35,481 nucleotides of DNA from a virus. Position numbers and translations under genes: made by a program. The stretch is from IMG/VR virus record IMGVR_UViG_3300031539_000146, positions 1-35,481 of that record. The stretch is one strand, 5' to 3'. This document shows, one piece after another, positions 4,470 through 24,204 of the stretch; positions within the stretch are counted from its first letter, which is position 1; each line of letters opens with the position of its first letter. The notes below the pieces were generated by a model. The model was not told the origin of the DNA. It did not search any database and was given only the letters and a program-made list of their open reading frames with translations.

Positions 4470-4909
4470 TATTCCGCCCTTCCTGGGTCGTATATTTCGA
4501 TAACGTCCAGGGTATGACGCCGTCCCCGATACGCGGTCTTCCGTTCCGATATGACGTCGGGAAGGGCCGAAAGCGACATAATGGTTTTGCTTACGTCGGC
4601 GACCCCGTTCAAGCGCGGATACTTCCCCAGGGTATCAATGACCTTTTGCGTTTCGGTCCCGACCCGAACGTCAAGTTCGGTTAGTTCCCCGCGCCAGGGG
4701 ACCAGGACGTCCACGTTGTAAGTCCATATCCGCCGTTCAAGCTGAAGGGTCAATTCTTCCTTCCGTAAATTGGCATACGACACGACGACCAGCCGGTCAA
4801 GCCCTTTCCCCAGGGCCCGCTTGTCGTACAGATAACAATTCGTCGCGTCGAAGTCGGCGTGAAGCTTAATCGTCGCGACAATGCCCGCTTCAATCGTTGC
4901 TTGTGACAT
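4469..4909 (-). CDS. Probable tail terminator/neck protein (146 aa)
   Basis: A 146-residue alpha/beta protein between the gp6-like connector and the gp10-like gene, the conserved position of tail terminator proteins (lambda gpU-like). It begins with MSQATIEAGI and has a central beta region (RLVVVSYANLR, RRIWTYNVDVLVP) and a C-terminal strand LDVIEIYDPG. Start ATG at 4909, preceded by GAAGGGGAAGAATA and touching the upstream stop. I see no diagnostic motif, so function rests on gene order. Confidence 0.6.
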   Translation of the reverse strand: MSQATIEAGIVATIKLHADFDATNCYLYDKRALGKGLDRLVVVSYANLRKEELTLQLERRIWTYNVDVLVPWRGELTELDVRVGTETQKVIDTLGKYPRLNGVADVSKTIMSLSALPDVISERKTAYRGRRHTLDVIEIYDPGRAE

Positions 4910-11838: not shown

Positions 11839-12666
11839 TTAATCTTCGAATACCCCGCGACGCCATTGGCCGTCGCGGTAAACAGTCAAATGACAACGGC
11901 AATTCCCGCGGCAAGTGACTTGTCCCGCGGGGACCGTCGGAAGTTGGGACCAGGACGTATAAACCTTCGCCAGTTCCGGACAACCATAAAAGCCCGCCGA
12001 CGGCTTGCAATGTTCCGCCCGCGGGTCCAGGTTCCACTTGACGGGTTCGGGCTTCAATCCCTGGGCGGCCCGTTCTTCTTCGCGGACGCCCCCCAGGGTC
12101 TTTTCGGTTTCGAATATCGCGACCCAGTAACCGCCGGCATATTGGGCGGGGGCCGACCTGGTCGCGGCCGACGCGTTCTTGATTGCCAGGGCGACGGACC
12201 TTTGTTGTTCAACGGCCAGGCCCCCGATAACCAGGCCAGGGACCGCGACCGCCAGGGCCAGGGAAAGCTTTTCGTGAATATGCGGGACCAGGTTTTCACG
12301 GACCAGGGCGACGTTGTCGGCGACCATGCGTTCGGCCTTCGCGCGTATCTGTGGAAGGTCCGCCCGTCCCCCCGCAACGGTCTTGACCGCGGTTTCAATG
12401 CCTTTGGTCATAACTCCGACCAGGTGTTCTTCAAGCTTCGGGACCTGGCGGTCCAGGTAAGCCGAAAGTTCGGGAAGCGTCGCCCCCCCCTTCGCCCTGG
12501 ACAATAGGTCCCGCTTCAGCGCGGCGACCCAGGCGTCGAACGTTGATACAATCTTCCGTTGCTGGCGGTTGGTCCGTTCTTCATAGGACCCCGAACCGAT
12601 ACGTTGCTTTTGCCCCGCTTTCGGTCGGGCCTGGAAGGTCGGCCGCCGCTTCAGTGATACGCCCAT
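11839..12666 (-). CDS. Minor head protein (Mu gpF / SPP1 gp7 family), 275 aa
   Basis: A helical N-terminal two-thirds is followed by the family's C-terminal signature: KWNLDPRAEHC (about residue 207), YGCPELAKVYTSW and a closing CRGNCRCHLTVY (about 252-263), where conserved Cys/His residues precede a final beta strand. These proteins bind the portal and enter the procapsid in few copies, and some are needed for DNA exit. The ATG overlaps the portal stop (coupled translation), the usual portal-minor head order. Confidence 0.83.
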   Translation of the reverse strand: MGVSLKRRPTFQARPKAGQKQRIGSGSYEERTNRQQRKIVSTFDAWVAALKRDLLSRAKGGATLPELSAYLDRQVPKLEEHLVGVMTKGIETAVKTVAGGRADLPQIRAKAERMVADNVALVRENLVPHIHEKLSLALAVAVPGLVIGGLAVEQQRSVALAIKNASAATRSAPAQYAGGYWVAIFETEKTLGGVREEERAAQGLKPEPVKWNLDPRAEHCKPSAGFYGCPELAKVYTSWSQLPTVPAGQVTCRGNCRCHLTVYRDGQWRRGVFED

Positions 12667-14081
12667 TATTTCGCCCCCGCCTTCACTAACCCCGCGACCT
12701 GGTCGCCCAGGTCTTCAAGCTTTCGGGGAAGGTCGAACAACCCGCCCAGGGGCGGCGTTTCCACGTCACGCGGGGCCCCCCGTACGTCGTCGGGAAGGTC
12801 CGGAAGGTCCGCAATCGCGCGAATGTGGTCTTCGTCAAGGTCGGTCGGCGTCAATATCTTCGCCCCGACCGCGGTATTCAATGAATTGATAAGGGCCGCC
12901 AGGTCAACGCGGCCTGGCTTTTCCCAGGTGATTGTCGGATAGCCTGAAATGCCTTGCCACTGGTTGAACTTGAAAAGGTACGGGACCAGTTGAAGGTTCC
13001 AGGTTTCCAGAAGGTAACGCTGGACCGCTTCAAGGGCCAGGCCGAAGAAGTCCTGGGAACCTTTGACAAGGGCCTGGGTCCCGACGTTCCCCATTCCCAG
13101 GATTAAGAACTGGGAAAAGAAACGCATTAACATAATCTTATGCCAGCGGTCAATGACGACGTTCGTGTCGTATATCTTCGACCCGCCGGCGTAAGCGCGA
13201 ATGTCCACGCCTTCGGGTTCGATAAGGTAAACTTCTTCGTCCTTCCGAAGCCCCTTCAGGGCCTTCTTTATAGCTTCAATGTCGTTGTCTTCGTAACCGC
13301 CTTCCTTCAGCTTCGCGACCGGCATTCCGCCGACGTCGCGTTCAATGCCGATACCTTCCAGGTCTTCCAGGTTGCGGGCGAACTTATAAGGCCGATACAG
13401 GGCCCGAAGTATCGAATGGCCCTGGGGGTTTCCCTTCCGGCCGCGGAACTTGTGGTGAACGCATTTCGCAATCGGTATGTCGAACGTTTCGCCTGAATTC
13501 GGGTCCTGTTGAATGAAGTATCGAAGCTTGTCCCTTTCGACTGGGTCATATTCCCAACGGTTCAAGCTTTCCTGGCCGCGCGGGTCAATGTTCCGAAGCC
13601 AAAGCCGGCCGTCGGCCCGCTTGTCCAGGATAATTTCGCCCAGGGCGAACCCGAAGTCCAGGATTTCCAGGGCGTCTTCGACATGGGAATTCCACGTTTG
13701 CCCGTCCATATTGGTCATGTTTTCGTAAAGCCATTCGGCGGCGGCTTCGTCGTTCGGGGCCCCACCTGGGGCCGGTTCGACCGTTATTTCGGCCGCCTGA
13801 AGGGGAAGCTTGATTGCGTCCAGTTGGGCCCCGATAATCGGGTCGTCCCTCATTTCCAGGTATAGCTTGATTTCGCTGGACCAGCTTTTGATTGCGTTCA
13901 GGTATTCTTCACGGATACGGCCGCCCAGGTGCTTCAACCCAGTGACGCCGATTATGGTCCGGAACTTCCCGTCCCCGTCGCCCTGGTATTTATAGGAACG
14001 CCGCCCTTCTTCCTGGCGGCGTTGACTACGTTTTGAATTCGGGTCGGGCGGGGTATATCCTGGTCGGCTTTGTGTAACCAT
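12666..14081 (-). CDS. Portal protein, DUF935 / Mu gp29-like (471 aa)
   Basis: Right length for a portal (471 aa). It contains DDPIIGAQLDAIKLPLQ (about residues 80-96), AAEWLYENM, LEILDFGFALGEI (about 140-152), KCVHHKFRGRKGNPQGHSIL (about 213-232), a GMPVAKLKEGG segment and FLILGMGNVGTQALV in the C-terminal helical region, all typical of DUF935 portals. It forms the dodecameric DNA channel at the capsid vertex and docks terminase. The frame opens with TTG at 14087, but ATG 14081 is correctly spaced from GAAGGGGG. A near-consensus promoter with an operator-like palindrome lies just upstream. Confidence 0.87.
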   Translation of the reverse strand: MVTQSRPGYTPPDPNSKRSQRRQEEGRRSYKYQGDGDGKFRTIIGVTGLKHLGGRIREEYLNAIKSWSSEIKLYLEMRDDPIIGAQLDAIKLPLQAAEITVEPAPGGAPNDEAAAEWLYENMTNMDGQTWNSHVEDALEILDFGFALGEIILDKRADGRLWLRNIDPRGQESLNRWEYDPVERDKLRYFIQQDPNSGETFDIPIAKCVHHKFRGRKGNPQGHSILRALYRPYKFARNLEDLEGIGIERDVGGMPVAKLKEGGYEDNDIEAIKKALKGLRKDEEVYLIEPEGVDIRAYAGGSKIYDTNVVIDRWHKIMLMRFFSQFLILGMGNVGTQALVKGSQDFFGLALEAVQRYLLETWNLQLVPYLFKFNQWQGISGYPTITWEKPGRVDLAALINSLNTAVGAKILTPTDLDEDHIRAIADLPDLPDDVRGAPRDVETPPLGGLFDLPRKLEDLGDQVAGLVKAGAK

Positions 14082-14120
14082 GTTCAACCCCCTTCAGGTA
14101 TAAATTCGGCCGTTTATGTA

Positions 14121-14149
14121 ATATTAAATGGAACTTTCCATTGTGTCAA
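14121..14149 (-). promoter_or_regulatory. Sigma70-type promoter for the portal/head operon (TTGACA-17-TAATAT)
   Basis: TTGACA at 14149-14144 and TAATAT at 14126-14121 with a 17-base spacer, in the 96-base gap between terminase and portal. Start of transcription would be near 14114, about 33 bases before the portal ATG. The -35 box is inside the 39-bp palindrome described separately, so it is probably regulated. Confidence 0.72.
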
Positions 14150-14169
14150 GTTGACACTATCGAAAGTTC
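14131..14169. repeat. 39-bp palindromic operator-like site over the head promoter
   Basis: Inverted repeat with 17 of 19 arm positions matched around a single central G. Outer arms are GAACTTTC/GAAAGTTC, inner arms GTGTCAA/TTGACAC. The inner core ATTGTGTCAAGTTGAC is the same as the origin iterons at 22712-22802, and the outer GAAC-TTTCCAT also recurs next to iteron 3. It covers the -35 box and part of the spacer of the portal promoter. Confidence 0.8.
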
Positions 14170-14177
14170 ATGCCTGG

Positions 14178-15668
14178 TCAATCGCGCCAACGGGACTTCT
14201 TTTCTTCGGACATGACGCCGACTTCCAGTCCCTTCAACCGCGGCTTCAGGGCCCGAAGTCCGTGGACCAGGACGTCAACAATATCGTCATGGGCCCCGTT
14301 CGGGAAGTCCCCGATTTCCTTCAGGAAGTCCGCCAACCAGGAAGCGCGGACGGGGACCAGGACTTGACCGACTTCCATAATGCCCGTGACGGTATGGGCC
14401 CGCGTGACCTTGTCGTCAATGGCCTTGACCGCCCGAAGCGGGACGCCGCTATCAACCCGTAATTGCTGAATAAGGGATATTCCGGAAGACTTGTCTTCAA
14501 TCAGGACGCGGTCGGGGTTCCATTTATCATATTGCGCGGTCGCCGCCCTGGTCAATTCGGGGAAGGTAAGCCTGGCGACGTATAGGTCCAGAAGGAAGAA
14601 GCGCGTCGGCTTCCGCTGGTATCCGATAGTCAAACACGCCGAACGGTCATGCCGTTGCTTTTCCTTGTGGGCCGTGTCCCATATCTGAATTAAGCGGGAC
14701 CAGACCCGCGGAAAGTCCTTTTCTTCATACGACTTGAACCAGGCCGTCTTGATAATGCCGCCGCCTTCCGGTTGCGGCTTCCCGCGGTATTGGGCCGACC
14801 ACCAAAACGGACCGGACGATATTCGAAGCTTCTTCAGGGCGACGTCGTCGTATCGTTCGGGCCAAAGGGCTTCCCCGACCTTCCGCCCCAGGACGTCGTT
14901 TTCTTCCGCCAGGGCGGGAAGGTTGATAACTTCCCAGGGGTCCGGTTCGACGTCGCTTTCAACTTCCAGGACGCGGCCTTCGTCTTCTTCCTGGGGCGGG
15001 TTCCCCAACAAGGCCCCCGCCAGGTCTTGTTCATGCCAGCGTGTCATAATGACGATTATCGAACCGCCAGGGGCAAGCCTGGTCCTGGCGACCGACCGAT
15101 ACCAGTTCCAGTTCCGCCGGCGGTAAACGTCGGAAAGGGCTTCGGCGTCGTTTTTAATAGGGTCGTCAATGATAACCAGGTCGAAGCCGCGGCCGGTAAA
15201 CGGGCCCCCGATACCGGCGACGAACATTCCGCCGCCATATCCCCGAAGGTTCCAGCGGCCCTTCGCTTGCGTATCCTGGCGAAGCTGAAGCCCCAGTTCG
15301 TCGGGGTTGTCGGATATTGTGTCCTTCGCCTTGCCGCCCCATTCGGCGGCGTATTGCATTTCGTAAGACGCCAGGCCGACCTTCTTCCAGGGGAACTTCT
15401 TCAGGAACCAGACGGCGGTCCAGTGTGAAATAAGTTCGCTTTTCCCGTGTTGGGGCGGGACGGTTAGCACGAAGAAGCGTTGGCCCAGGGCGACTTCGGC
15501 GATACGTTCGGACAAGTATTCGACATGGCGCGGCCGTGTGTAAGCCCCGCGGGATATGTGTTCGGCCAGCGACGCCGGCGTCCTGGTCCAGTTCGCCAGG
15601 TTTTCCCGCTTCCGGATTTCGACCGAAGCGGCGGCGTCCTTCAATAGATACGGTTGTCGTGTTATCAT
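14178..15668 (-). CDS. Terminase large subunit (496 aa)
   Basis: ATPase motor plus nuclease. Walker A is PPQHGKSE (about residues 71-78), Walker B LVIIDDP (164-170), and the coupling segment IVIMTRWHEQDLAG follows. The C-terminal RNase-H-like nuclease shows acidic positions in QIWDTAHKEK, VLIEDKSSG and HDDIVDVLVHG. It packages DNA into the procapsid and cuts concatemers. The frame begins with TTG at 15674 and ATG at 15668. A promoter-like -10 overlaps the ATG, and no good ribosome site is visible, so the exact start is unsure. It lies below a probable small subunit two genes upstream. Confidence 0.9.
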   Translation of the reverse strand: MITRQPYLLKDAAASVEIRKRENLANWTRTPASLAEHISRGAYTRPRHVEYLSERIAEVALGQRFFVLTVPPQHGKSELISHWTAVWFLKKFPWKKVGLASYEMQYAAEWGGKAKDTISDNPDELGLQLRQDTQAKGRWNLRGYGGGMFVAGIGGPFTGRGFDLVIIDDPIKNDAEALSDVYRRRNWNWYRSVARTRLAPGGSIIVIMTRWHEQDLAGALLGNPPQEEDEGRVLEVESDVEPDPWEVINLPALAEENDVLGRKVGEALWPERYDDVALKKLRISSGPFWWSAQYRGKPQPEGGGIIKTAWFKSYEEKDFPRVWSRLIQIWDTAHKEKQRHDRSACLTIGYQRKPTRFFLLDLYVARLTFPELTRAATAQYDKWNPDRVLIEDKSSGISLIQQLRVDSGVPLRAVKAIDDKVTRAHTVTGIMEVGQVLVPVRASWLADFLKEIGDFPNGAHDDIVDVLVHGLRALKPRLKGLEVGVMSEEKKSRWRD

Positions 15669-15691
15669 AGCCAAAAGGTAACTTTTGTCAA
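15664..15691 (-). promoter_or_regulatory. Promoter-like TTGACA-16-TATGAT over the terminase start
   Basis: TTGACA at 15691-15686 and TATGAT at 15669-15664 with a 16-base spacer. The -10 box contains the terminase ATG, so a transcript from here would start inside the gene and could not give the full terminase. It may drive downstream genes or be chance. It overlaps the palindrome at 15678-15711. Confidence 0.45.
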
Positions 15692-15711
15692 CCGTGGTTC
15701 ACTAAAGTTAC
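15678..15711. repeat. 34-bp imperfect palindrome upstream of terminase
   Basis: Perfect outer arms GTAACTTT/AAAGTTAC and inner AACC/GGTT with symmetric GT/AC matches between them. It fills the 39-base gap between the upstream gene and terminase and covers a TTGACA box. It looks like an operator rather than a terminator, as no U-run follows on the minus strand. Confidence 0.6.
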
Positions 15712-16166
15712 TCATTCTTCCATTCAACTTTCACTTCGACCAGGTCCGCGAAGGCGTCGGGGTCCGCTTCGACCTGGTAATCGGGGACGGGTATCACTTC
15801 GAACCCAACGCCGAAGCCTGGTATAAGGATTGTCTTCGCCAGTCGTTCACGGACGCGAGCCGCCTGGTCCTGGGTCATAAAGAAGCGATACCTGGTCGGC
15901 GGCTCGACGGCGAATACCCCTTCGTAAGTGACGGGGCCGCCCGTTGTGTCCTGGGGCCGCTGAAGGCCGTTCCCCGCGGTTCCGAACAAAGCCGAAGCGT
16001 TCCCTGGCGGCTTGTATTTATGCGCGATTTCCAGGAAGGACGATTGCGGCTTCACTTCAGGACAACGCCGGCATTCACGCCAGGGCCGCTTCTTCCCCCT
16101 GGGACGAACGACCTTGATATTCCCCTTCTTCAGCGGGGCCCCGCATTTATGGCAAGCCCCTTTCAT
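15708..16166 (-). CDS. Zinc-ribbon protein upstream of terminase (152 aa)
   Basis: MKGACHKCGAPLKKG has a CxxC knuckle, completed by RECRRCPEV (CxxC, about residues 31-34). The rest is alpha/beta, with a central helix DQAARVRERLAK and an acidic end (LVEVKVEWKNE). The start overlaps the preceding stop (ATGA). It may bind DNA or assist terminase, as its neighbours do packaging, but this is inference. Confidence 0.65.
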   Translation of the reverse strand: MKGACHKCGAPLKKGNIKVVRPRGKKRPWRECRRCPEVKPQSSFLEIAHKYKPPGNASALFGTAGNGLQRPQDTTGGPVTYEGVFAVEPPTRYRFFMTQDQAARVRERLAKTILIPGFGVGFEVIPVPDYQVEADPDAFADLVEVKVEWKNE

Positions 16167-16402
16167 TTATCCCGCCAGTATCCCGTCAAGCTGATATTGA
16201 CCACGAAGCGGCCCGTCGGCCGGAATTGACATTGACCGATAAGGGTCGCTTGCCCTGGGTGTTCGCCTGGTTCCCGTTCCGTATATGGTTCGACGCATTC
16301 CGCTTCGGCCAGGACTTCCGTCTTCATTTCAACGATACGGAAGCGGCGAAGGAAGCGGCGAAGTTCCCCGACGAACGCGTGTTTCCTTTTCCATTCTGTC
16401 AT
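16163..16402 (-). CDS. Unknown small basic protein (79 aa)
   Basis: A basic N-terminus (KRKHAFVGELRRFLRRFRIV) is followed by beta strands ending VVNISLTGYWR. Start ATG at 16402 with AAAGGGGGACACA before it. It overlaps the genes on both sides by ATGA-type junctions, so it is a real member of this operon. No family recognised. Confidence 0.6.
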   Translation of the reverse strand: MTEWKRKHAFVGELRRFLRRFRIVEMKTEVLAEAECVEPYTEREPGEHPGQATLIGQCQFRPTGRFVVNISLTGYWRDK

Positions 16403-17073
16403 TGTGTCCCCCTTTCGGGAAGTGCCTTCGTCTTCCCGTAATAAGTGTTCAAGACCTGGTCGCCGCGCTGAATGAATTCGGCTTCCCGCTTCCGGACCAG
16501 TTCGGGCGGGTCGTTCGTGATAACGTTGACGGCCAGGAAGACGGCGAACATATCCTTGACCAGCGGCGGAAGGACTTCGATAATGACTTCGGCCTTCGAC
16601 GTGGCAAGTCCACGGGCCAGGCGTTCGCCATATTGGAACGTTTGGGCCAGCTTGCCGATAGTCTGAAGGTCAATGTCCAGGGTCGGGGCCATGCCCGCCG
16701 CGACCTTCTTTTCGATTTCCTGGTTCCAGTGTTTTATCCCCGCCGTGACCAGCGCGCCAATATCCTTGAAGGTCCGCGCGTGTTCTTCGTTCATTCGGTC
16801 AACCTGGTCCTGGACGTCAACGAACCCCGCGCTTTCATGCCTGGCGGCCCGTTCCAGTATCTTCGCTTGCCAACCGTAATCGGACGAATACCGTTCCAGG
16901 GTCTTCAGGGATATTTCCGCCCCGACGCCGCGGACAAGCCCCCACAATCGCTTCAGGGTTCGCGTAACCCCCATTTGTTCATATACCAGGAAGAAGTATT
17001 CCTGGCGTTCGTCGGCCCGAAGCGCGTTCCAAGGACGGACCGTCTTCTTATGACTTCGCGGCTTTTCGTTCAT
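16399..17073 (-). CDS. Probable terminase small subunit (224 aa)
   Basis: An N-terminal helix-turn-helix-like region (GVTRTLKRLWGLV ... ISLKTLERYSSDYGWQAK, about residues 36-75) is followed by a long helical, oligomerisation-type domain (VDRMNEEHARTFKDIG onward), as in small terminases that recognise the packaging site. It lies three genes above the large subunit. The frame extends upstream to 17151, but the ATG at 17073 with GGAAGGATACGATA before it is better placed and overlaps the Rmf-like gene by only 26 bases. The small terminase identity is inferred from fold pattern and position. Confidence 0.65.
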   Translation of the reverse strand: MNEKPRSHKKTVRPWNALRADERQEYFFLVYEQMGVTRTLKRLWGLVRGVGAEISLKTLERYSSDYGWQAKILERAARHESAGFVDVQDQVDRMNEEHARTFKDIGALVTAGIKHWNQEIEKKVAAGMAPTLDIDLQTIGKLAQTFQYGERLARGLATSKAEVIIEVLPPLVKDMFAVFLAVNVITNDPPELVRKREAEFIQRGDQVLNTYYGKTKALPERGTQ

Positions 17074-17236
17074 TATCGTATCCTTCCAACCACGCCCGAA
17101 TATAGCCGCGCGACCAGGTAATCGCCCCGCGATATGTTCGGTTGTCGCCATACGGACAAGCGGTTCGGGGCTTGCCTTCGCGGGCGGCTTGACGCCCCTT
17201 TTCTTCCGCGGCGGCCAGGCGTGGGTTATCGTTCAA
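17048..17236 (-). CDS. Ribosome-modulation-factor-like small protein (62 aa), TTG start
   Basis: The pattern EKGRQAAREGKPRTACPYG ... WSRGYIRAWLEGYDNER matches Rmf-like proteins (G-x2-A-x-G ... CPY ... W-x2-G), small factors that in bacteria bind and dimerise idle 70S ribosomes. Phage copies are known but their role is not. The first codon is TTG at 17236, placed six bases after GAAGGGGG, and no ATG lies nearby, so the ribosome site decides the start. It overlaps genes on both sides. Confidence 0.62.
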   Translation of the reverse strand: MNDNPRLAAAEEKGRQAAREGKPRTACPYGDNRTYRGAITWSRGYIRAWLEGYDNERKAAKS

Positions 17237-18326
17237 TGTCGGCCCCCTTCCCGTGTCCGTGGTTACTCATTCCGATTGGCGTCCGTTTCCCGACGGCGAC
17301 CGCGCGGCAATGCCGGCATATCCGGTCGCCCGCGTTTTCCCGCCAGTCCAGGGCGGCGGCCAATACCTGAATATCGTCGGCGGGACCCGCGACGCCCTGG
17401 CATTGCCCGACTTCTTCAATGTCGGTCTTTTCGACCATAATCCAGTCGCAAAGGCGTATCGGGTAGCCGTAGGGTTGCCGGTAAACGTGGACGCGGTTCC
17501 GCTTTTGTCCCGCCTGGCGGCCGATAATGTCACGGTTCGGCTTGCCCGCTTCCAGGGTTTCCCGCGGGATATTGACGACCGTGGTCGGCCGTTTGTCCAG
17601 GTCCTTCAGTATTTCGTCAACCCTTCCTGGAACCGCGCGAATGTCCCGAACACGTTCCCGCCAAGCTTGCCCCTTCGTCCCGTTGTGGAAGTCAATCCGA
17701 ACCAGTTCGCCGCGGGTTTCCGCCAGGACATATTCACAAGGTAACGGGGCATGACCAGGGGCCCGAAGTTGAATGCCGACCGCGCGCCAGGCTTCGAAGA
17801 CAAGTTCGGTACAAATGAAAGCCTGGTCCCTGGCGTATGGAATGTCGGCGGGTCCCATGCGGCGCGGGGCTTTCCCGTGGACCAGGCGGCCGGCCTGGAA
17901 CTGAAGGACCCCGACCAGAAGCTTCAGGTATAGCGTGAAGTCGTATCCGTGACGGCCGAACCGTGACGCCTTTTCGACGACGATTTGGCCCAGTTGGTCG
18001 AACGACCGCGACGCGTTCAATCGAAGCTTGTGGTTGTTGAAGACGAACCAGAATTTCGCGTGTTCGTCGTTGACCCTGAAGACCTGGTAATCGCGGCCCC
18101 GATACCAGGAAAGCCGGCCCATTGTCGGGCCCTTCGCGACGCTTTCGATTATGGAATAATCGTCTTCGCCGGCCAGGTAAGCGTCAATCAATAGGAAGTG
18201 GTAAAGCGCGGTCCGCGGGGTGAATAGGAAGCGGGCCAGTTTACCCAGGAATGAGTAATTCGCGACGCCGACGACGTCGCCAGGTTCATATATTACCCGC
18301 CGGTCTTCGTCTTGTCTAACCTTCAT
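17226..18326 (-). CDS. Permuted NlpC/P60 (papain-like) hydrolase with C-terminal extension (366 aa)
   Basis: The YaeF/YiiX-type permuted papain order is visible. PGDVVGVAN (about residues 15-23) is followed by a His in LYHFLLIDAY (H43), then IIESVAKGPTMG (59-70), and the catalytic Cys comes late in AFICTELVFEAWRAVG (C172). Such enzymes cut peptide or ester bonds in the cell wall or lipids. The last about 150 residues are unrelated and contain a CxxC (RICRHC). It is the only lysin-like gene in the genome, so an endolysin role is possible, though its place beside packaging genes also fits a virion or internal enzyme. It overlaps its neighbour by ATGA. Confidence 0.68.
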   Translation of the reverse strand: MKVRQDEDRRVIYEPGDVVGVANYSFLGKLARFLFTPRTALYHFLLIDAYLAGEDDYSIIESVAKGPTMGRLSWYRGRDYQVFRVNDEHAKFWFVFNNHKLRLNASRSFDQLGQIVVEKASRFGRHGYDFTLYLKLLVGVLQFQAGRLVHGKAPRRMGPADIPYARDQAFICTELVFEAWRAVGIQLRAPGHAPLPCEYVLAETRGELVRIDFHNGTKGQAWRERVRDIRAVPGRVDEILKDLDKRPTTVVNIPRETLEAGKPNRDIIGRQAGQKRNRVHVYRQPYGYPIRLCDWIMVEKTDIEEVGQCQGVAGPADDIQVLAAALDWRENAGDRICRHCRAVAVGKRTPIGMSNHGHGKGADIER

Positions 18327-18616
18327 GGTTTCCCCCTTTGCGCTTGTCGCGCTTCTTTTATTGCCTGGTCCCCCATGCCAGGCTTCGGGATATATAGCTT
18401 CGGGCCCTGGTCCGTCGCTGGCCCTTCCGCCGGCGGCGGTTCCCCCAGGTGGTTCATTATGAACACGACGTCTTCAATCAAGTTCCTATGCTTGATACAG
18501 GCGTCGGGCTTGCCTGGTTCCTTCGCGAATATGGCCCCGCAATTCGGGAACCCGCAACGGAAAAGCGGTTCGCGCTTTGCATTGAAGACTTGTTTCCCGC
18601 CCTTCTTATTCGCCAT
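18323..18616 (-). CDS. Small Cys-containing protein (97 aa)
   Basis: FRCGFPNCGAIFAKEPGK with a later Cys and His (DACIKHRN) suggests a C2HC-like zinc site near residues 19-43. The C-terminal half is Pro/Gly-rich. The frame opens at 18631, but ATG 18616 has GAAGGGGGTATCA at the right distance and is preferred. Function unknown. Confidence 0.62.
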   Translation of the reverse strand: MANKKGGKQVFNAKREPLFRCGFPNCGAIFAKEPGKPDACIKHRNLIEDVVFIMNHLGEPPPAEGPATDQGPKLYIPKPGMGDQAIKEARQAQRGKP

Positions 18617-19043
18617 TGATACCCCCTTCAAGATTGACTTCGAATAGCTTCAGCGCGCCCTTGTATGGTATAGGCGTATCGTATCGTTTCGGGTCCGCCA
18701 GGACAAGGCCGTATCCGCCGACGAACCACGGCGACCACTGGACGGGCGACCGATATTCAGGGAAAAGCGGTTCCTGGCCCTGGCGAAGACAATCAACCAG
18801 GACCGCTTCGCCGATAATCGCCCCCCTGGTCCGCGGGGTCGCCTGGAATAGTTCGCGGTCCGCGGGTTCCAGGTTCGCGTTCAACCATTCTTCCGTATAT
18901 GGCGGCGGGTAGTAATCGGGGGCGTCGGACGCGTGAATGTATATCAGGCCGCGGAAGGCCGTTCGCCAGGGCCGGTTGTCCACGGGCTTCAGGCCCAGGA
19001 CCGCCAGGGTCGCCCAGGGTTCCCGAAACGATAACGCCTTCAC
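18606..19043 (-). CDS. ASCH-domain protein (145 aa), GTG start
   Basis: The opening VKALSFREPWATLAVLGLKP, then NRPWRTAFRGLIYIHAS (about residues 22-38), is the ASCH signature (PWA-x-LI-x-G-K...R-x-W-x-T-x-RG). The domain binds or acts on RNA or modified nucleosides; some members deaminate or hydrolyse N4-acetylcytidine. GTG at 19043 overlaps the preceding stop (GTGA) and has GGGGAAGG upstream. The frame runs back to 19196, but that part has no family resemblance. It sits with DUF1643 and radical SAM genes. Confidence 0.75.
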   Translation of the reverse strand: MKALSFREPWATLAVLGLKPVDNRPWRTAFRGLIYIHASDAPDYYPPPYTEEWLNANLEPADRELFQATPRTRGAIIGEAVLVDCLRQGQEPLFPEYRSPVQWSPWFVGGYGLVLADPKRYDTPIPYKGALKLFEVNLEGGINGE

Positions 19044-19303
19044 TTCGCCTTCCCCGACGCCGTGACCGCGGCTTCGTTGTCCTGGCGATACCGTTCGCCG
19101 CCGGCGCGGATATTGGCGGCTTCTTCTTCCGTGAACATACCCGACGCGACGGCCTTCTTCAGCGTGAAGGTATGGCCGCGCTTCCCGCCAGGGCAAGCGA
19201 AAGTAATCCCTTCGTTCAGGTCCCCTTCGGTCAAGCTAACGTAAGAATGAAGTTCGGTCGCCTGGACCGTGTGACCGGACGGGCAAGTGAATTCGGTCTT
19301 CAT
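19040..19303 (-). CDS. Unknown small protein with CPSGH motif (87 aa)
   Basis: MKTEFTCPSGHTVQATE and ITFACPGGKRGHTFTLKK give two C-P-x-G-(x)-H units, possibly a small zinc site. A helical end FTEEEAANIRAGGERYR follows. Start ATG at 19303 with AAAGGGGGACAAT before it, overlapping the DUF1643 stop. No known family recognised. Confidence 0.62.
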   Translation of the reverse strand: MKTEFTCPSGHTVQATELHSYVSLTEGDLNEGITFACPGGKRGHTFTLKKAVASGMFTEEEAANIRAGGERYRQDNEAAVTASGKAK

Positions 19304-19797
19304 ATTGTCCCCCTTTCGTATGTAATGAACGGCGTGTCCGCCTTCAAGTAAAGCGGGTGTTTCGGCCAGCCGTCCTTCGTTTTCCCCAGGCATAAGACGG
19401 GGTTCCCGACCAGGGCCAGGACTTCTTCGGGCCTGGTCCGCGCCAGGTCCCCGAAATGGCCCCAACCGGCCAGGGTCGCCGAACAAAGCCCCCGCATTTG
19501 GCGAAGGGCTTCGTCGTTGGAAGCCTGGTCCCGCGTCATGTCCAGGTTCCCAGGGTTCGCCGTTACCTGGTCGAATAGGTTCCCGACGAATAGGCCGCCC
19601 CAACCGTTTTCGCGGGCGAAGCGGGCGACGCGGACAATGGTCGGGTCGTCCTGGTATTCGGTCGCCGTGGACGGGTTCAAGCCTATGAAAAGAAGCGCGG
19701 GTTTCGCCTGGTCCCATACCCGCCAAAGCGCGAAGCGGAAGCGTCGGCATTCGCTTTCACTGAAGACGGCCCCGCTTATGGTCCCGCCGATATCCAC
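19300..19797 (-). CDS. DUF1643 protein (165 aa), GTG start
   Basis: RRFRFALWRVWDQAKPALLF, then IGLNPSTATEYQDDPTIVRVARFARENGWGG-type sequence (about residues 35-65) and VGNLFDQVTANP, is the DUF1643 signature (LNPSTA-x4-DPT). It is a widely spread phage/bacterial family of unproven function, related by fold to uracil-DNA-glycosylase-like proteins in some analyses. GTG 19797 lies seven bases after GAAGAAGG and overlaps the zinc-ribbon gene by 22 bases. A longer frame to 19905 is Pro/Arg-rich antisense-like sequence and is rejected. Confidence 0.8.
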   Translation of the reverse strand: MDIGGTISGAVFSESECRRFRFALWRVWDQAKPALLFIGLNPSTATEYQDDPTIVRVARFARENGWGGLFVGNLFDQVTANPGNLDMTRDQASNDEALRQMRGLCSATLAGWGHFGDLARTRPEEVLALVGNPVLCLGKTKDGWPKHPLYLKADTPFITYERGTI

Positions 19798-20000
19798 TTC
19801 GGGACCTTCTTCCCGCTGGCGTCCCGCTTCCACGGGAAGCCCCCCAGGACGTTTCGGTTCCGCTTCAGCGGTTGGGCCCCTGGGACCCCGCGGCATTGCG
19901 GACAAACGGGCGTGTCCCTTTCCCAGTCCTTTTCGACCCCGTCAACGGTTTCTATTCGGGCCATGTTTTGCCCGCATTGTGAACAAACGACAATGTCCAT
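19776..20000 (-). CDS. Zinc-ribbon protein (74 aa)
   Basis: MDIVVCSQCGQNMARIETVD and TPVCPQCRGV provide two CxxC knuckles (about residues 6-9 and 33-36). Start ATG at 20000 with AAAGGGGGAAAT before it; an upstream in-frame ATG at 20015 lacks such spacing. It lies between the radical SAM and DUF1643 genes and could be a partner for either. Unknown role. Confidence 0.68.
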   Translation of the reverse strand: MDIVVCSQCGQNMARIETVDGVEKDWERDTPVCPQCRGVPGAQPLKRNRNVLGGFPWKRDASGKKVPKWISAGP

Positions 20001-20011
20001 ATTTCCCCCTT

Positions 20012-20791
20012 TCAATTCGGGACCAGGCCGACGGTTATCCCGTCGGGGCGGCCGATATAGCGCGCCAGGTCCTTCTTGATATAGTAATTCGCCCCCAGGC
20101 GGTCCAGAAGACCGACGACTTCCTGGGCGAATACCTTCCAGTCAACCGGCGGCGGAACCAGGTCCCGCGGAAGCTTCCCTGAATAGTTCAACGTCCCGAC
20201 CTTGAAGACGTCAACGAATTTCGCCGTCGCTTCAATCAGGGCCAGGGTTTCCGTATAGTCAATGACGGGTTCACATGATACCCAGGTCCCAATTCCGCGC
20301 TTGTGGGCGTCGTCCAGGGAAAGCATTCGGTCAATGGGAAGGGCCGCCCCTGGTTCCCAGGTCCGCGAAAGCTTCGGGTCCATAAACGTCAAGGTCGTCC
20401 CGAATAGGTCCCCGCCGTCCAGAAGGTCGAAGTCGTGTGTCGCGCGGAAGCCGCCCTTCGTTAGAATGGCGACGCCCAGGTTCGCCGCGTGAAGAATTTC
20501 AATCGCCCGCCTGGTCAAGTGGAAGCGTTCTTCGGCGGGTTGATACGGGTCCGTCACGAACGACAAAAGAACGTGCCGGCTTTCATAATTTCCTTCAAGG
20601 CGCGCGGCGTCCTTCGCCAGTTCCCCCAGGACGTCGGCCCGCCTGGGGAACGACGGCCCGAAGAATTCCTTCGGGTCCTTCCGAAGAACGTCGGCCCCGT
20701 AGCAATAGGCGCAAGCGTGTTCGCAACCTGAATATAAGTTGGCCGCCAGTTCGAAGTATTCCCTGGCGCGGCCCCTGGTTTCGTATATCAT
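20012..20791 (-). CDS. Radical SAM protein, SPL-like (259 aa)
   Basis: The Fe-S motif C-x3-C-x2-C is at residues 23, 27 and 30 (SGCEHACAYCYG). FVTDPYQPAE (about 98), ILTKGGFRATHD (about 125) and VSCEPVIDYTETL (about 188) follow. This is the spore-photoproduct-lyase/Rv2578c-like radical SAM group, found in many phages and in DNA repair contexts. It would bind a 4Fe-4S cluster and S-adenosylmethionine. The substrate is unknown; nucleic acid is the best guess given the nearby ASCH and DUF1643 genes. Confidence 0.82.
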   Translation of the reverse strand: MIYETRGRAREYFELAANLYSGCEHACAYCYGADVLRKDPKEFFGPSFPRRADVLGELAKDAARLEGNYESRHVLLSFVTDPYQPAEERFHLTRRAIEILHAANLGVAILTKGGFRATHDFDLLDGGDLFGTTLTFMDPKLSRTWEPGAALPIDRMLSLDDAHKRGIGTWVSCEPVIDYTETLALIEATAKFVDVFKVGTLNYSGKLPRDLVPPPVDWKVFAQEVVGLLDRLGANYYIKKDLARYIGRPDGITVGLVPN

Positions 20792-21015
20792 GCGGGCCCC
20801 CTTTCCAGCAAAGCGCGAAGGTCGTCCGCTTCAATCAGGACGGGGCAAGTCAAGCTTTCCAGGTTGTCGTTCCCGTCGCCTTGCCAATACCAGACTTCGC
20901 CCTGGCGTTCACGCTGAAGCGCGGCGTTTTCGTCGGATAGCTTTTCGGCTTCCCGTTTTATCACGGCCAGGGCTTCGTCCAGGTCGTGAAATGCCTTTTC
21001 CAGTTCGTTTCCCAT
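20788..21015 (-). CDS. Coiled-coil small protein (75 aa)
   Basis: The first about 40 residues form an evident coiled coil (LEKAFHDLDEALAVIKREAE, then EKLSDENAALQRER). A short strand region and helix ADDLRALLERG follow. Start ATG at 21015 with AAAGGGGGAAATTGAA before it. It overlaps the radical SAM ATG (ATGA). Unknown function. Confidence 0.62.
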   Translation of the reverse strand: MGNELEKAFHDLDEALAVIKREAEKLSDENAALQRERQGEVWYWQGDGNDNLESLTCPVLIEADDLRALLERGPA

Positions 21016-21030
21016 TTCAATTTCCCCCTT

Positions 21031-21237
21031 TCATGCTTTGCCCCACAACTTCTTCCGTCGTTGGGGCGGTTGATAACATTCTTCGTGTTTATAAATGGTC
21101 GTCATATAGGACCCGCCGCAACTTGATTGACGGGACGTCGTCTTGATAGCGCGGTCCCCGACGTGAATGGTCTTGTCCGCCCGCTGGCATTTATGGCATT
21201 CGTGTTCGGCGGTCGCCGTGAATAATATCGCGGTCAT
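21031..21237 (-). CDS. Zinc-knuckle protein (68 aa)
   Basis: HECHKCQRADKTIHVGDRAI and a later CGGSYM...HEECYQ give C-x2-C ... H-x2-C zinc ligands (residues about 14-17 and 51-54), as in small PARP-finger-like phage proteins. The end is very basic (PPQRRKKLWGKA). It overlaps the RuvC-like gene by ATGA. Confidence 0.65.
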   Translation of the reverse strand: MTAILFTATAEHECHKCQRADKTIHVGDRAIKTTSRQSSCGGSYMTTIYKHEECYQPPQRRKKLWGKA

Positions 21238-21725
21238 GTCGTCATTCCTTCCAGCTTCCGAAGGCCCCCGTGGTAAACGCCTATCGCGACGGCGTCGTAT
21301 TCGTGTTCGGTCAAGTCGTCGGGGATACTGGGGAACCTGAAGCGGATATTGTTCTTCACGATTTCCTTCGGGGCGTGGACGTGCCCGACGACGGCGTTCT
21401 TCCAGGTCGCGGGGTTATAGGCGGCCAGGGGAAGCTTGACCCCCTTCGCCCATTCCTGAATTGACCGGAAGATAATCTGAAGCCCCGCGATATTCCGGAA
21501 GCGGTTCTTCGAATGCCAGGCCGTCTTCACGTCTTCGATAGCGATTTCCTGGAAGTGATACACTTGTGTCAAGTGTATCAACTCATTGACGACGTACTGG
21601 AACCGGAAGGAATATTCGACTTTGCGAAGGTCAATCTTCCCCCAGGCGACCAGTCCTTCGTCCTGGAATATGGCCCAACCCGTGAAGGTCGTCGCGGGGT
21701 CAAGTGATATGAACCTGGTCGTCAT
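21234..21725 (-). CDS. RuvC-like Holliday junction resolvase (163 aa)
   Basis: RNase-H-fold nuclease with acidic residues D9 (FISLDPATTFTGWA), E64 (AIEDVKTAW) and a C-terminal H-x2-D (EHEYDAVAIG, D144), the order seen in RuvC. Phage RuvC-like proteins resolve branched replication or recombination intermediates before packaging. It is coupled to the helicase loader upstream (overlap 21722-21725). A 25-bp palindrome with the iteron core lies inside it. Confidence 0.82.
   Translation of the reverse strand: MTTRFISLDPATTFTGWAIFQDEGLVAWGKIDLRKVEYSFRFQYVVNELIHLTQVYHFQEIAIEDVKTAWHSKNRFRNIAGLQIIFRSIQEWAKGVKLPLAAYNPATWKNAVVGHVHAPKEIVKNNIRFRFPSIPDDLTEHEYDAVAIGVYHGGLRKLEGMTT
21556..21580. repeat. 25-bp palindrome with iteron-like core inside the resolvase gene
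   Basis: TGATACACTTG and CAAGTGTATCA arms around a TGT centre; 11 of 12 arm positions match. It contains TTGTGTCAAGT, the eleven-base core of the first origin iteron, so the same protein could bind here. Confidence 0.65.
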
Positions 21726-22309
21726 TTGGTCGCCCCCTTCCCGCGCCAGCTTTCGCCGGTTATGACCGCGGACGCGCCTTCCTTGACGCGGTCCAGGATA
21801 CGTTCGGACTGGTCCGCCAGCTTGTTCGCCGTCATTACCAGGGGAAGGCGTTCGCGGTATCGGTAGTCAACCAGGGCGTCCAGTTGGGCGTCCCGCCAGG
21901 CGGTTCGGTTATGGGCCCCCAGGTCGTCCAGTATAACCAGGTCGGCTTCCTTCAGGCGCGACCATATTCGGCCGAATTCCTTCCCTTCGGTCAAGACGGC
22001 CTGAAGTTCGTTCAAAAGTTCTTCCGCCTGGTAGTAAAGGACGCGGTCGCCCGCTTCCAGGAACCCCCAGGCGATAAGGTATGCCAGGGTCGTTTTGCCG
22101 ACGCCTGGAATGCCAATGAAAAGAAGAAGCGGCGGGTCAATCCTTCCGACCAGGAAGTTCGTCGCGGTCCGTATCGCTTTTCGGTTGCCTTCGGTTTCCG
22201 TTAGTTCCTTGAACTTCAATCCGCGGCTTATAATCGGGACCCGCGACGCGTGGACGTTGGCTTCGACCCGTTGCTTCCAGTAGAATTCCCGCTTTTCTTC
22301 TTCGTTCAA
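21722..22309 (-). CDS. DnaC/DnaI-like helicase loader ATPase (195 aa)
   Basis: AAA+ ATPase with Walker A GIPGVGKTT (residues 66-74), Walker B LVILDDLG (about 124-131), a sensor-1-like MTANKL (about 158) and an N-terminal helical, charged region suited to binding DnaB. This is the DnaC/IstB-type fold used to load the host replicative helicase at a phage origin. It follows the initiator gene with a four-base overlap. The phage encodes no helicase or polymerase, so it must recruit those of the host. Confidence 0.86.
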   Translation of the reverse strand: MNEEEKREFYWKQRVEANVHASRVPIISRGLKFKELTETEGNRKAIRTATNFLVGRIDPPLLLFIGIPGVGKTTLAYLIAWGFLEAGDRVLYYQAEELLNELQAVLTEGKEFGRIWSRLKEADLVILDDLGAHNRTAWRDAQLDALVDYRYRERLPLVMTANKLADQSERILDRVKEGASAVITGESWRGKGATK

Positions 22310-23163
22310 TTCAACCCCCTTTCCTTCGCCTGGGCGACCAGGTCGTCTTCGGTCGGAAGGAAGGTCGTTTGCCGCGGGAATGTTCGGGACGGTTTTCCCA
22401 TGTCTTCGTTGACGAAGACCATTGAAACGAATTCGCCGCGGGCCCTGACCTTCACTTGCCAGGCGGCCAATATGTCGTCTTCAGAATACCCCCTGGCGAC
22501 CATTCGGTCAATCGCTTTCGCTTCCTTGCCGTAATTCGGTATCGGGTCCTTGTCGGTCTTTTCAGGGTATCCGAATTCGATTTGCATTGAAGCGAATATG
22601 GGCCTGGAATGAAGTTTCGGCGCGCGCCGTTTCTTCTCTGTGCTAATCTCTGAAGGTTGTTTCTGGTTACTCTCTGGTCCCCCGTTTTCGTGCGTAGCTT
22701 GTGCCTGGCCCGATTGTGTCAAGTTGACCGATTGCATAGTGTCAAGTTGACCCTTTCCATTGGGCCATTCTGACACTATGGAAGGTTCATTCTGACACAA
22801 TAGGGAAAGCCGTTCATGGTTCACGCGATACCATTTGGTCCGGTCAATGTTCGACTTATTGAAGCGGCCCGAAATAAGGAAGCCCGCCTTTTCCAGACGC
22901 GCGAATATCCGCTTCAGTGTGCTTGTGGACCAAAGGAAGGAAAACTGTTCGGCCCAGGCGTTGAACGTGTTATACGTCCAGAAGAAGCCTTCCTGGTTGT
23001 TCCGGTCGGCCCGCTGGTTCATTATTACCCAATAATGGACTTGCTGAAGGACCAGGGCTTCGTCAATGCCGTTGAACCCTGGGACGCCCTTCAGTAACCG
23101 CGCCAATTCGGGAATAAGGACCAGGGGCCGTTCGTCATATAGCAAACGGCTTTCGGCCCCCAT
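22306..23163 (-). CDS. Replication initiator with origin inside the gene (285 aa)
   Basis: N-terminal winged-helix region (about residues 15-115: LARLLKGVPGFNGIDEALVL, VHYWVIMN, LKRIFARLEKAGFLI, WYRVN), like phage replication proteins that bind origin DNA. A low-complexity linker (about 120-180) follows. The C-terminal part (GYSEDDILAAWQVKVRARG, about 232-250) is DnaD/RepO-like. The linker coding sequence holds four iterons, as lambda O does. It is followed at once by the helicase loader (O-P order). Start ATG 23163 with AAAGGGGAATAAAAC before it. The initiator role is inferred from fold pattern, gene order and iterons. Confidence 0.82.
   Translation of the reverse strand: MGAESRLLYDERPLVLIPELARLLKGVPGFNGIDEALVLQQVHYWVIMNQRADRNNQEGFFWTYNTFNAWAEQFSFLWSTSTLKRIFARLEKAGFLISGRFNKSNIDRTKWYRVNHERLSLLCQNEPSIVSEWPNGKGQLDTMQSVNLTQSGQAQATHENGGPESNQKQPSEISTEKKRRAPKLHSRPIFASMQIEFGYPEKTDKDPIPNYGKEAKAIDRMVARGYSEDDILAAWQVKVRARGEFVSMVFVNEDMGKPSRTFPRQTTFLPTEDDLVAQAKERGLN
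22712..22802. other. Probable replication origin: four 18-bp iterons
   Basis: Four copies of an 18-bp site with consensus NATWGTGTCARRWTGRCC. Two are direct on the plus strand (22712-22729 and 22735-22752). Two are on the minus strand (22763-22780 and 22785-22802). Starts within each pair are 23 and 22 bases apart, about two helical turns. They fall in the linker region of the initiator gene, and the surrounding sequence is less GC-rich than the rest. This matches the lambda-type origin inside the initiator gene. Confidence 0.8.
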
Positions 23164-23166
23164 GTT

Positions 23167-23895
23167 TTATTCCCCTTTTCCGGAATTCGCTTCCCCCTTG
23201 CCTTCCTCAATATCGAAGGACCCGACGTCCAGGGCCCGAATAAGCTTGTATCCTTCGGCCGACGGTTCCAGGGTTTCCAGGGCCGCGCGGATTTCGAAGG
23301 GTTCCTTCTGGTCGGCGGCCAGGCCGCAATTATGGACGCCGGCGATTACGGCTTCGGTCGGGTTCTTCCCGCGGCCGGCGACCGTTCTTATTTCCCCCGT
23401 CCCGTTGACGACGTACTCAATCAGGACCCCGAACGGCTTTTCTTCTTCGGGAATATGGTTGAAGCCGACCGAATGAATGGCGGACGCGGGCTTTGCCTGG
23501 TCCGGTTCCTGGGTCGCGGTTGGCTTGTCCAGCGCGGGCGTCTTCGCCTTTTCCGCGGCGATTGCCGCCTTCACAATTTCGACCCGCCCGTCCTTCGTGA
23601 ACTTGAAGTCCATTGCCGTTTGCGGGCTTCCGATTGTCGCGAATAATGAACCGTGTGGTTGCTTCAGAAGATTGACCAGGCGGAAGATTTCGTACTGGTC
23701 AACGCGGGAAGTGAACTGGACCCTGATTAAAAGGTTCCCGTCCGCGTCGAAGGCCAGGGCTTGCTTCAGGTCGGTTATGGACGGGAAGTTGATTTCGACC
23801 CGAAGCGATTGAACAACTTCCGTCTTCGCGACGTCGGCCTTCGCCTGGGTCTTCTTCGGTCCTTTGTCGGGCTTGCTTTCGGTATTCTTCGCCAT
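23167..23895 (-). CDS. Unknown protein of the replication operon (242 aa)
   Basis: A Lys-rich N-terminus (about 25 residues) is followed by a beta-rich domain with LRVEINFPSITDLKQALAF and LLIRVQFTSRVDQYEIFRLV, a Pro/Ala/Lys linker (about 120-145), and a second alpha/beta part with GRGKNPTEAVIAGVHNCGL. It ends acidic (EEGKGEANSGKGE). Start ATG 23895 with AAAGGGGGAATATATC before it. It directly precedes the initiator gene. I do not recognise a family; a role in DNA replication or nucleotide metabolism is only suggested by position. Confidence 0.6.
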   Translation of the reverse strand: MAKNTESKPDKGPKKTQAKADVAKTEVVQSLRVEINFPSITDLKQALAFDADGNLLIRVQFTSRVDQYEIFRLVNLLKQPHGSLFATIGSPQTAMDFKFTKDGRVEIVKAAIAAEKAKTPALDKPTATQEPDQAKPASAIHSVGFNHIPEEEKPFGVLIEYVVNGTGEIRTVAGRGKNPTEAVIAGVHNCGLAADQKEPFEIRAALETLEPSAEGYKLIRALDVGSFDIEEGKGEANSGKGE

Positions 23896-23916
23896 GATAT
23901 ATTCCCCCTTTCGGAA

Positions 23917-23952
23917 ATAGAAAAGGACCCCGATTAAAGATTTTCGGGGTCC
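23917..23952 (-). terminator. Rho-independent terminator at the end of the RHH gene
   Basis: Nine-base arms GGACCCCGA/TCGGGGTCC with a ten-base loop, then TTTTCTATTT. The left arm encodes the last residues of the ribbon-helix-helix protein and the stop codon is in the loop. It separates that gene from the replication operon, perhaps leaky. Confidence 0.82.
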
Positions 23953-24149
23953 AGCCTGATTGTTTCGCCGTTGAAGTATCGGGTGAAGTGGTTGTTGACA
24001 AGGGTCGCGACGCCCTTTTCCCCGTAACCCTGGCGAACCGCTTCGTCGTGAAGCTTCTGGTCAATGCCGATATTTATTCGCCAGTTCCGGTTTACTTTGC
24101 CAGGGGCGACTTGCCCCTTCTTATGGGTCGTCTTCGCGTTCGTTACCAT
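23934..24149 (-). CDS. Ribbon-helix-helix transcription regulator (71 aa)
   Basis: After a basic N-terminal tail (KTTHKKGQVAPGKVNR), the segment WRINIGIDQKLHDEAVRQG followed by GVATLVNNHFTRYF fits the beta-strand/helix/helix of Arc/CopG-type proteins (about residues 22-62). These bind operators as dimers. It has its own promoter (24204-24175) and lies between two terminators, so it is transcribed separately. That suits an autoregulated repressor or early/late switch protein. Start ATG 24149 with GAAAGGGGGTTCCCAA before it. Confidence 0.7.
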   Translation of the reverse strand: MVTNAKTTHKKGQVAPGKVNRNWRINIGIDQKLHDEAVRQGYGEKGVATLVNNHFTRYFNGETIRLDPENL

Positions 24150-24174: not shown

Positions 24175-24204
24175 ATTGTAACGCCCCCGTCCCGCCAATG
24201 TCAA
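24175..24204 (-). promoter_or_regulatory. Promoter TTGACA-18-TACAAT for the RHH regulator
   Basis: TTGACA at 24204-24199 and TACAAT at 24180-24175. Transcription would start near 24168, about 20 bases before the ATG. The spacer is GC-rich, unlike the shared spacer of the other early promoters. A run of eight T on the plus strand lies just upstream. Confidence 0.75.

Follow-up and report, generated by a model that had tools for sequence, protein, structure and literature searches.

The timing of structural-gene expression relative to DNA replication is understood mechanistically in few phages, including T4 (the sliding clamp), lambda (Q) and phi29 (p4 and p6). The late genes of lambda depend on Q antitermination, and to our knowledge no site for the lambda O protein is found on a late promoter. 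Operators for autorepression by the replication initiator are a feature of iteron plasmids, as seen with the π protein of R6K and RepA of pPS10. RepE of plasmid F binds both the origin iterons and inverted repeats at a promoter, and RepE is titrated by the iterons (PMC13028717). Among phages, O dimers bind the four 19-bp iterons of the lambda origin (PMC3985674), gp38 of SPP1 recognizes an origin within its gene and also binds a second region located among the late genes (PMC6316719), and late transcription in T4 is coupled to DNA replication (PMC2988020).

The locus described here lies in the window, the whole stretch of 35,481 nucleotides of viral DNA that was analysed (IMG/VR record IMGVR_UViG_3300031539_000146), and its features are collected in the table. 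A preliminary description had reported a palindrome that shares the core of the origin iterons, an outer arm that recurs beside one iteron, and a position on the -35 element of a near-consensus promoter reading into the portal gene, all of which are borne out. The dyad comprises the arms GAACTTTCCATTGTGTCAA and TTGACACTATCGAAAGTTC with 1 base between them, matched at 17 of 19 pairs; an exact-repeat search with a 9-base seed misses it, there being no exact run that long. The operator core is GTGTCAAGTTGACAC at 14143-14157, and the exact core GTGTCAAGTTGAC has three occurrences in the record, at 14143, 22716 and 22739. It is thus present in only two of the four iterons, the other two reading GTGTCAGAATGAACC and GTGTCAGAATGGCCC (minus strand). 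Next to one iteron, the outer arm is found again in the form GAACCTTCCAT (10/11, 22778-22788, minus strand). The operator and promoter are placed between terL and the portal gene, the right half of the core doubling as the -35, and the promoter agrees with the consensus at 10 of 12 positions. The portal ORF, with its ATG at 14081, is extendable to a TTG at 14087, and the promoter presumably starts an operon of head genes. A promoter-like match for terL (15691-15664) is not conserved and was set aside, as was a reading of the dyad as an RNA hairpin or terminator: a run of T is lacking, and one stem pair is lost wherever the left arm reads GTATCA, as it commonly does.

Features of the window that bear on the putative operator
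Feature	Position	Strand	Remarks
Portal gene, first behind the promoter	12666-14081	-	Pfam Portal_Mu E=1.5e-36; phrog_113 E=1.9e-64
Predicted portal promoter	14121-14149	-	TTGACA (14149-14144), 17 bp, TAATAT (14126-14121); -35 invariant, -10 conserved, spacer variable (17 distinct sequences)
Putative operator, 39-bp dyad	14131-14169	.	Top match of the iteron-only PWM; kept upstream of portal in 19/25 relatives
Terminase large subunit (terL), just upstream of the portal promoter	14178-15674	-	Terminase_6N/6C; phrog_38
IstB/DnaC-like AAA+ ATPase, probable helicase loader	21722-22309	-	PF01695 E=5.8e-14
Replication initiator (O-like/DnaD-like helicase-loader families)	22306-23163	-	N-terminal winged helix (type 1), iteron-bearing linker, C-terminal domain
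Origin inside the initiator gene	22709-22805	.	Four iterons, 22-23 bp spacing; encode a disordered linker, about residues 119-152
Small ribbon-helix-helix (RHH)-like protein, rival operator binder	23934-24149	-	Present in each complete or nearly complete record examined; AF2 model with two helices, low confidence
Predicted promoter of the rhh-p242-initiator operon	24175-24204	-	TTGACA-18-TACAAT; dyad there only in relative G015

The likeness to the iterons was scored with a position weight matrix (PWM) of 15 bp, made solely from the in-gene iterons of six genomes. The score at 14143 is 23.66, the highest in the window, as against maxima with a median of 11.8 and a largest value of 18.6 in 100 dinucleotide shuffles. 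In every record holding the operator the portal site is the top or near-top match, and the sole other intergenic site lies in one relative (G015:28788). An additional GTCAACTTGAC at G002:21336 falls within a coding gene and was discarded.

Relatives comprised 25 IMG/VR records found through the portal protein. Those that hold the dyad upstream of portal keep it in the same register, its centre 1 base upstream of TTGACA and the -10 about 17 bp further on. Over 17 distinct sequences, the half-site to the left of the -35, for which the promoter has no need, carries 1.40 bits per column, whereas the outer flank has 0.34 and the remaining spacer 0.41. Where a gene has been inserted between terL and portal (L005), the operator stays directly before portal. 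This conservation rules out a chance dyad, and 14131-14169 is almost certainly a real regulatory site. The operator is nonetheless dispensable, since four relatives, all fragment contigs (L048, L049, L051 and L052), have lost it and retain a promoter, TTGACT-17-TAAACT, at the terL stop; two further portal relatives also have no dyad. It was not found in more distant relatives (terL 48-61%). One contig without a portal gene (L117, terL 67% identity) has a partial half-site, GTATCAATTTGAA, behind terL at 4825-4880, possibly a decayed or divergent operator. Megablast of window positions 12000-24000 against phage records gave no match. A search of bacterial and archaeal genomes returned no portal, and terL there reached at most 42% identity. 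The operator-bearing phages form a clade of undescribed phages.

The operator and the iterons have more than a core in common. They share one extended half-site, CSAWWGTRTCAA, and the operator half-sites, taken together with 46 half-sites from the iterons of six type-1 genomes, agree on C-S-A-W-W-G-K-R-T-C-A-A. The outer CSAWW is therefore shared as well, and it stands on both sides of the operator. The operator is in effect one complete, stand-alone iteron of nearly full symmetry. It departs from the iterons in its left arm, which is mostly GTATCAA (10/17), whereas A occurs at this place in only 3 of the 46 iteron half-sites; the A may serve to avoid creating an antisense -35. Read backwards, a GTGTCAA half-site is TTGACAC, and any stray iteron therefore supplies a consensus -35.

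The initiator has family matches to phrog_6493 (E=4.6e-32), 11233, 428, 678, 270 and 391 and no match in Pfam; a profile search of solved structures gave nothing convincing. Its N-domain is a confident winged helix in an AF2 model, with the disordered linker encoded by the iterons behind it. In a fold search with this domain the nearest solved folds, at Z about 10, were annotated as initiator or Rep-DNA complex, and are plasmid-type initiators, one of them bound to DNA. The same layout recurs in relatives, the iterons lying in the initiator gene between the DNA-binding and C-terminal domains. Distant initiators of the family have their own in-gene iterons at 22-23 bp; in those families a crude automatic iteron finder, which picked other repeats in L004, L005 and L006, detected essentially no stray iterons outside the initiator gene within 10 kb. 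A conserved radical SAM protein (phrog_13321) is encoded near the replication genes, at 20012-20791 of the window.

The N- and C-domains of the initiator have been exchanged in this clade so that each of the four combinations occurs, and they are joined at the in-gene origin (L095, L096, L097, L103, L112, L113 and window 22306-23163), and one type of C-domain contains a DnaA_N domain (PF11638). Type-1 N-domains go with GTGTCAA-TTGACAC iterons and type-2 N-domains with CGGTWNCC repeats (the CGGTWNCC iterons) in 10 of 10 initiators, whichever C-domain is attached. Because the iteron type tracks the N-domain, it is very probably this winged-helix domain that reads the iterons, and, the operator motif being identical to the iterons, it would read the operator too in type-1 phages.

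The best explanation of the locus as a whole, given a probability of about 0.6, is that a stand-alone origin iteron is used as an operator over the head promoter. The winged-helix domain of a type-1 initiator would bind the operator as well as the iterons of its own gene, probably as a dimer, and the shared half-site makes such binding in type-1 phages quite probable. Bound initiator would cover the -35, and repression of the portal/head operon by this means is rather likely. With four origin iterons per operator in each genome, replication could titrate the initiator: a fall in free initiator per site would release the head promoter, and head synthesis would then keep pace with the number of genomes. 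This titration step is speculative and seems doubtful. The complete circuit, in which the initiator represses the head operon directly, is titrated off by new origins so that the phage counts genomes, and is rewired by a swap of the N-domain, is unlikely as a package. The preliminary description's proposal of the initiator as head-operon repressor stands in part: the common extended half-site, the retention of the site in 19 of 25 relatives and the tracking of iteron type with N-domain speak for it, and the four relatives that lost the operator, with two that keep it beside another initiator, speak against.

Those two relatives, G006 and G017, have type-2 initiators with an unrelated N-domain and unrelated iterons, yet the operator is still present before portal, reading GTATCAACTTGACAC (both outer arms present) and GTACCAAGTTGACAC. 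The operator is present in 5 of 5 genomes with type 1 and 2 of 2 with type 2, that is, without association, so its presence is not tied to a type-1 initiator. In G006 and G017 it may be a relic, may have been carried there by recombination, as the clade shuffles freely, or may be read by another factor. Upstream of the type-2 initiator of G006 (L098, 16204-17040), a gene that by eye resembles PAPS reductase and an AT-rich, foreign-looking stretch replace p242.

The other factor could be a conserved regulator, either the RHH-like protein or a host repressor, with the initiator perhaps sharing the site. This explanation is rather unlikely. In its favour, no complete or nearly complete record lacks rhh, not even G006 and G017, in which the operator persists without a type-1 N-domain, and the A-for-G departure of the operator left arm from the iterons is systematic. 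Among the remaining proteins of the window, Pfam and PHROG scans picked out zinc-ribbon-like proteins but no further clear DNA-binding regulator. The rhh promoter itself carries no dyad in any genome compared except G015, in which a second copy (the site at G015:28788; L101, 11750-11830) immediately follows the -10 of the promoter for the operon headed by rhh. This second copy is a point in favour of the RHH-like protein; it also fits the expectation of autorepression under the initiator reading, in which the motif at this promoter would let the initiator repress its own operon. The strand residues of the RHH-like protein presumed to face DNA vary (N, D, L, Y or R at position 26; G, T or D at 28, in a register that we take from alignment to Arc), whereas the operator is constant. 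A regulator of this kind also leaves the same 12-bp half-site in type-1 iterons unexplained, and there is no conserved third site. Upstream of rhh, the window and all relatives have a strongly conserved GGGCTTGACA-N17/18-TACAATC with a variable spacer. It is a probable early promoter and appears to drive rhh-p242-initiator and the following genes, presumably as one operon.

Alternatively, the operator could be a replication element bound by the initiator, such as a fork barrier or secondary origin, its overlap with the promoter being incidental. Such an arrangement has a precedent in SPP1, where gp38 binds oriL, inside its gene, as well as oriR, far away in the late region, and where gp38 at oriR has been proposed to stall forks (PMC6316719). 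The portal site, however, is a single dyad without a repeat array, with its centre always 1 base upstream of TTGACA and a conserved -10, and this alternative is improbable. Least probable is a strong promoter whose dyad arose by chance: the right half is the -35, so TTGACA forces part of the symmetry, and four relatives have the promoter alone, but the left half is conserved far above spacer and flank, the score exceeds those of all 100 shuffles and CSAWW stands on both sides, so that this reading is disfavoured.

The reading of the operator as an iteron recognized by the initiator can be set against the described systems. Lambda O and plasmid initiators of the RepA_N type have a similar plan, with an N-terminal DNA-binding domain, iterons in the gene that encode a linker, and a C-terminal contact to the loader. 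SPP1 resembles the window in that its initiator has an in-gene origin and a second site among the late genes. SPP1 oriR, however, consists of repeats plus an unwinding element at a proposed fork-stall site, whereas the operator of the window is a dyad on a -35; the portal site is a single dyad, not an array of initiator boxes with an AT-rich unwinding element. Coupling in T4 is positive and acts through the sliding clamp gp45, in contrast to the derepression by initiator titration proposed here. A literature search with partial coverage turned up neither a late promoter repressed by a phage initiator nor an initiator operator on a head promoter. An initiator site in the head promoter, if true, would tie capsid supply to genome number very economically, and the clade, in which the initiator's DNA-binding domain has been swapped naturally, offers a ready-made genetic test. 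Operators of the RepE type are alike in being inverted repeats of iteron-like half-sites that overlap a promoter. In those plasmids the operator controls the initiator's own gene, whereas in the window it would control the portal/head operon about 8.6 kb away; the initiator-operon promoter of the window has no dyad, so autoregulation of the RepE kind is not seen there, and both sites occur together only in G015. Initiator operators on the initiator's own promoter are already known, and what is new would be the transfer of a plasmid-style initiator operator to a virion promoter.
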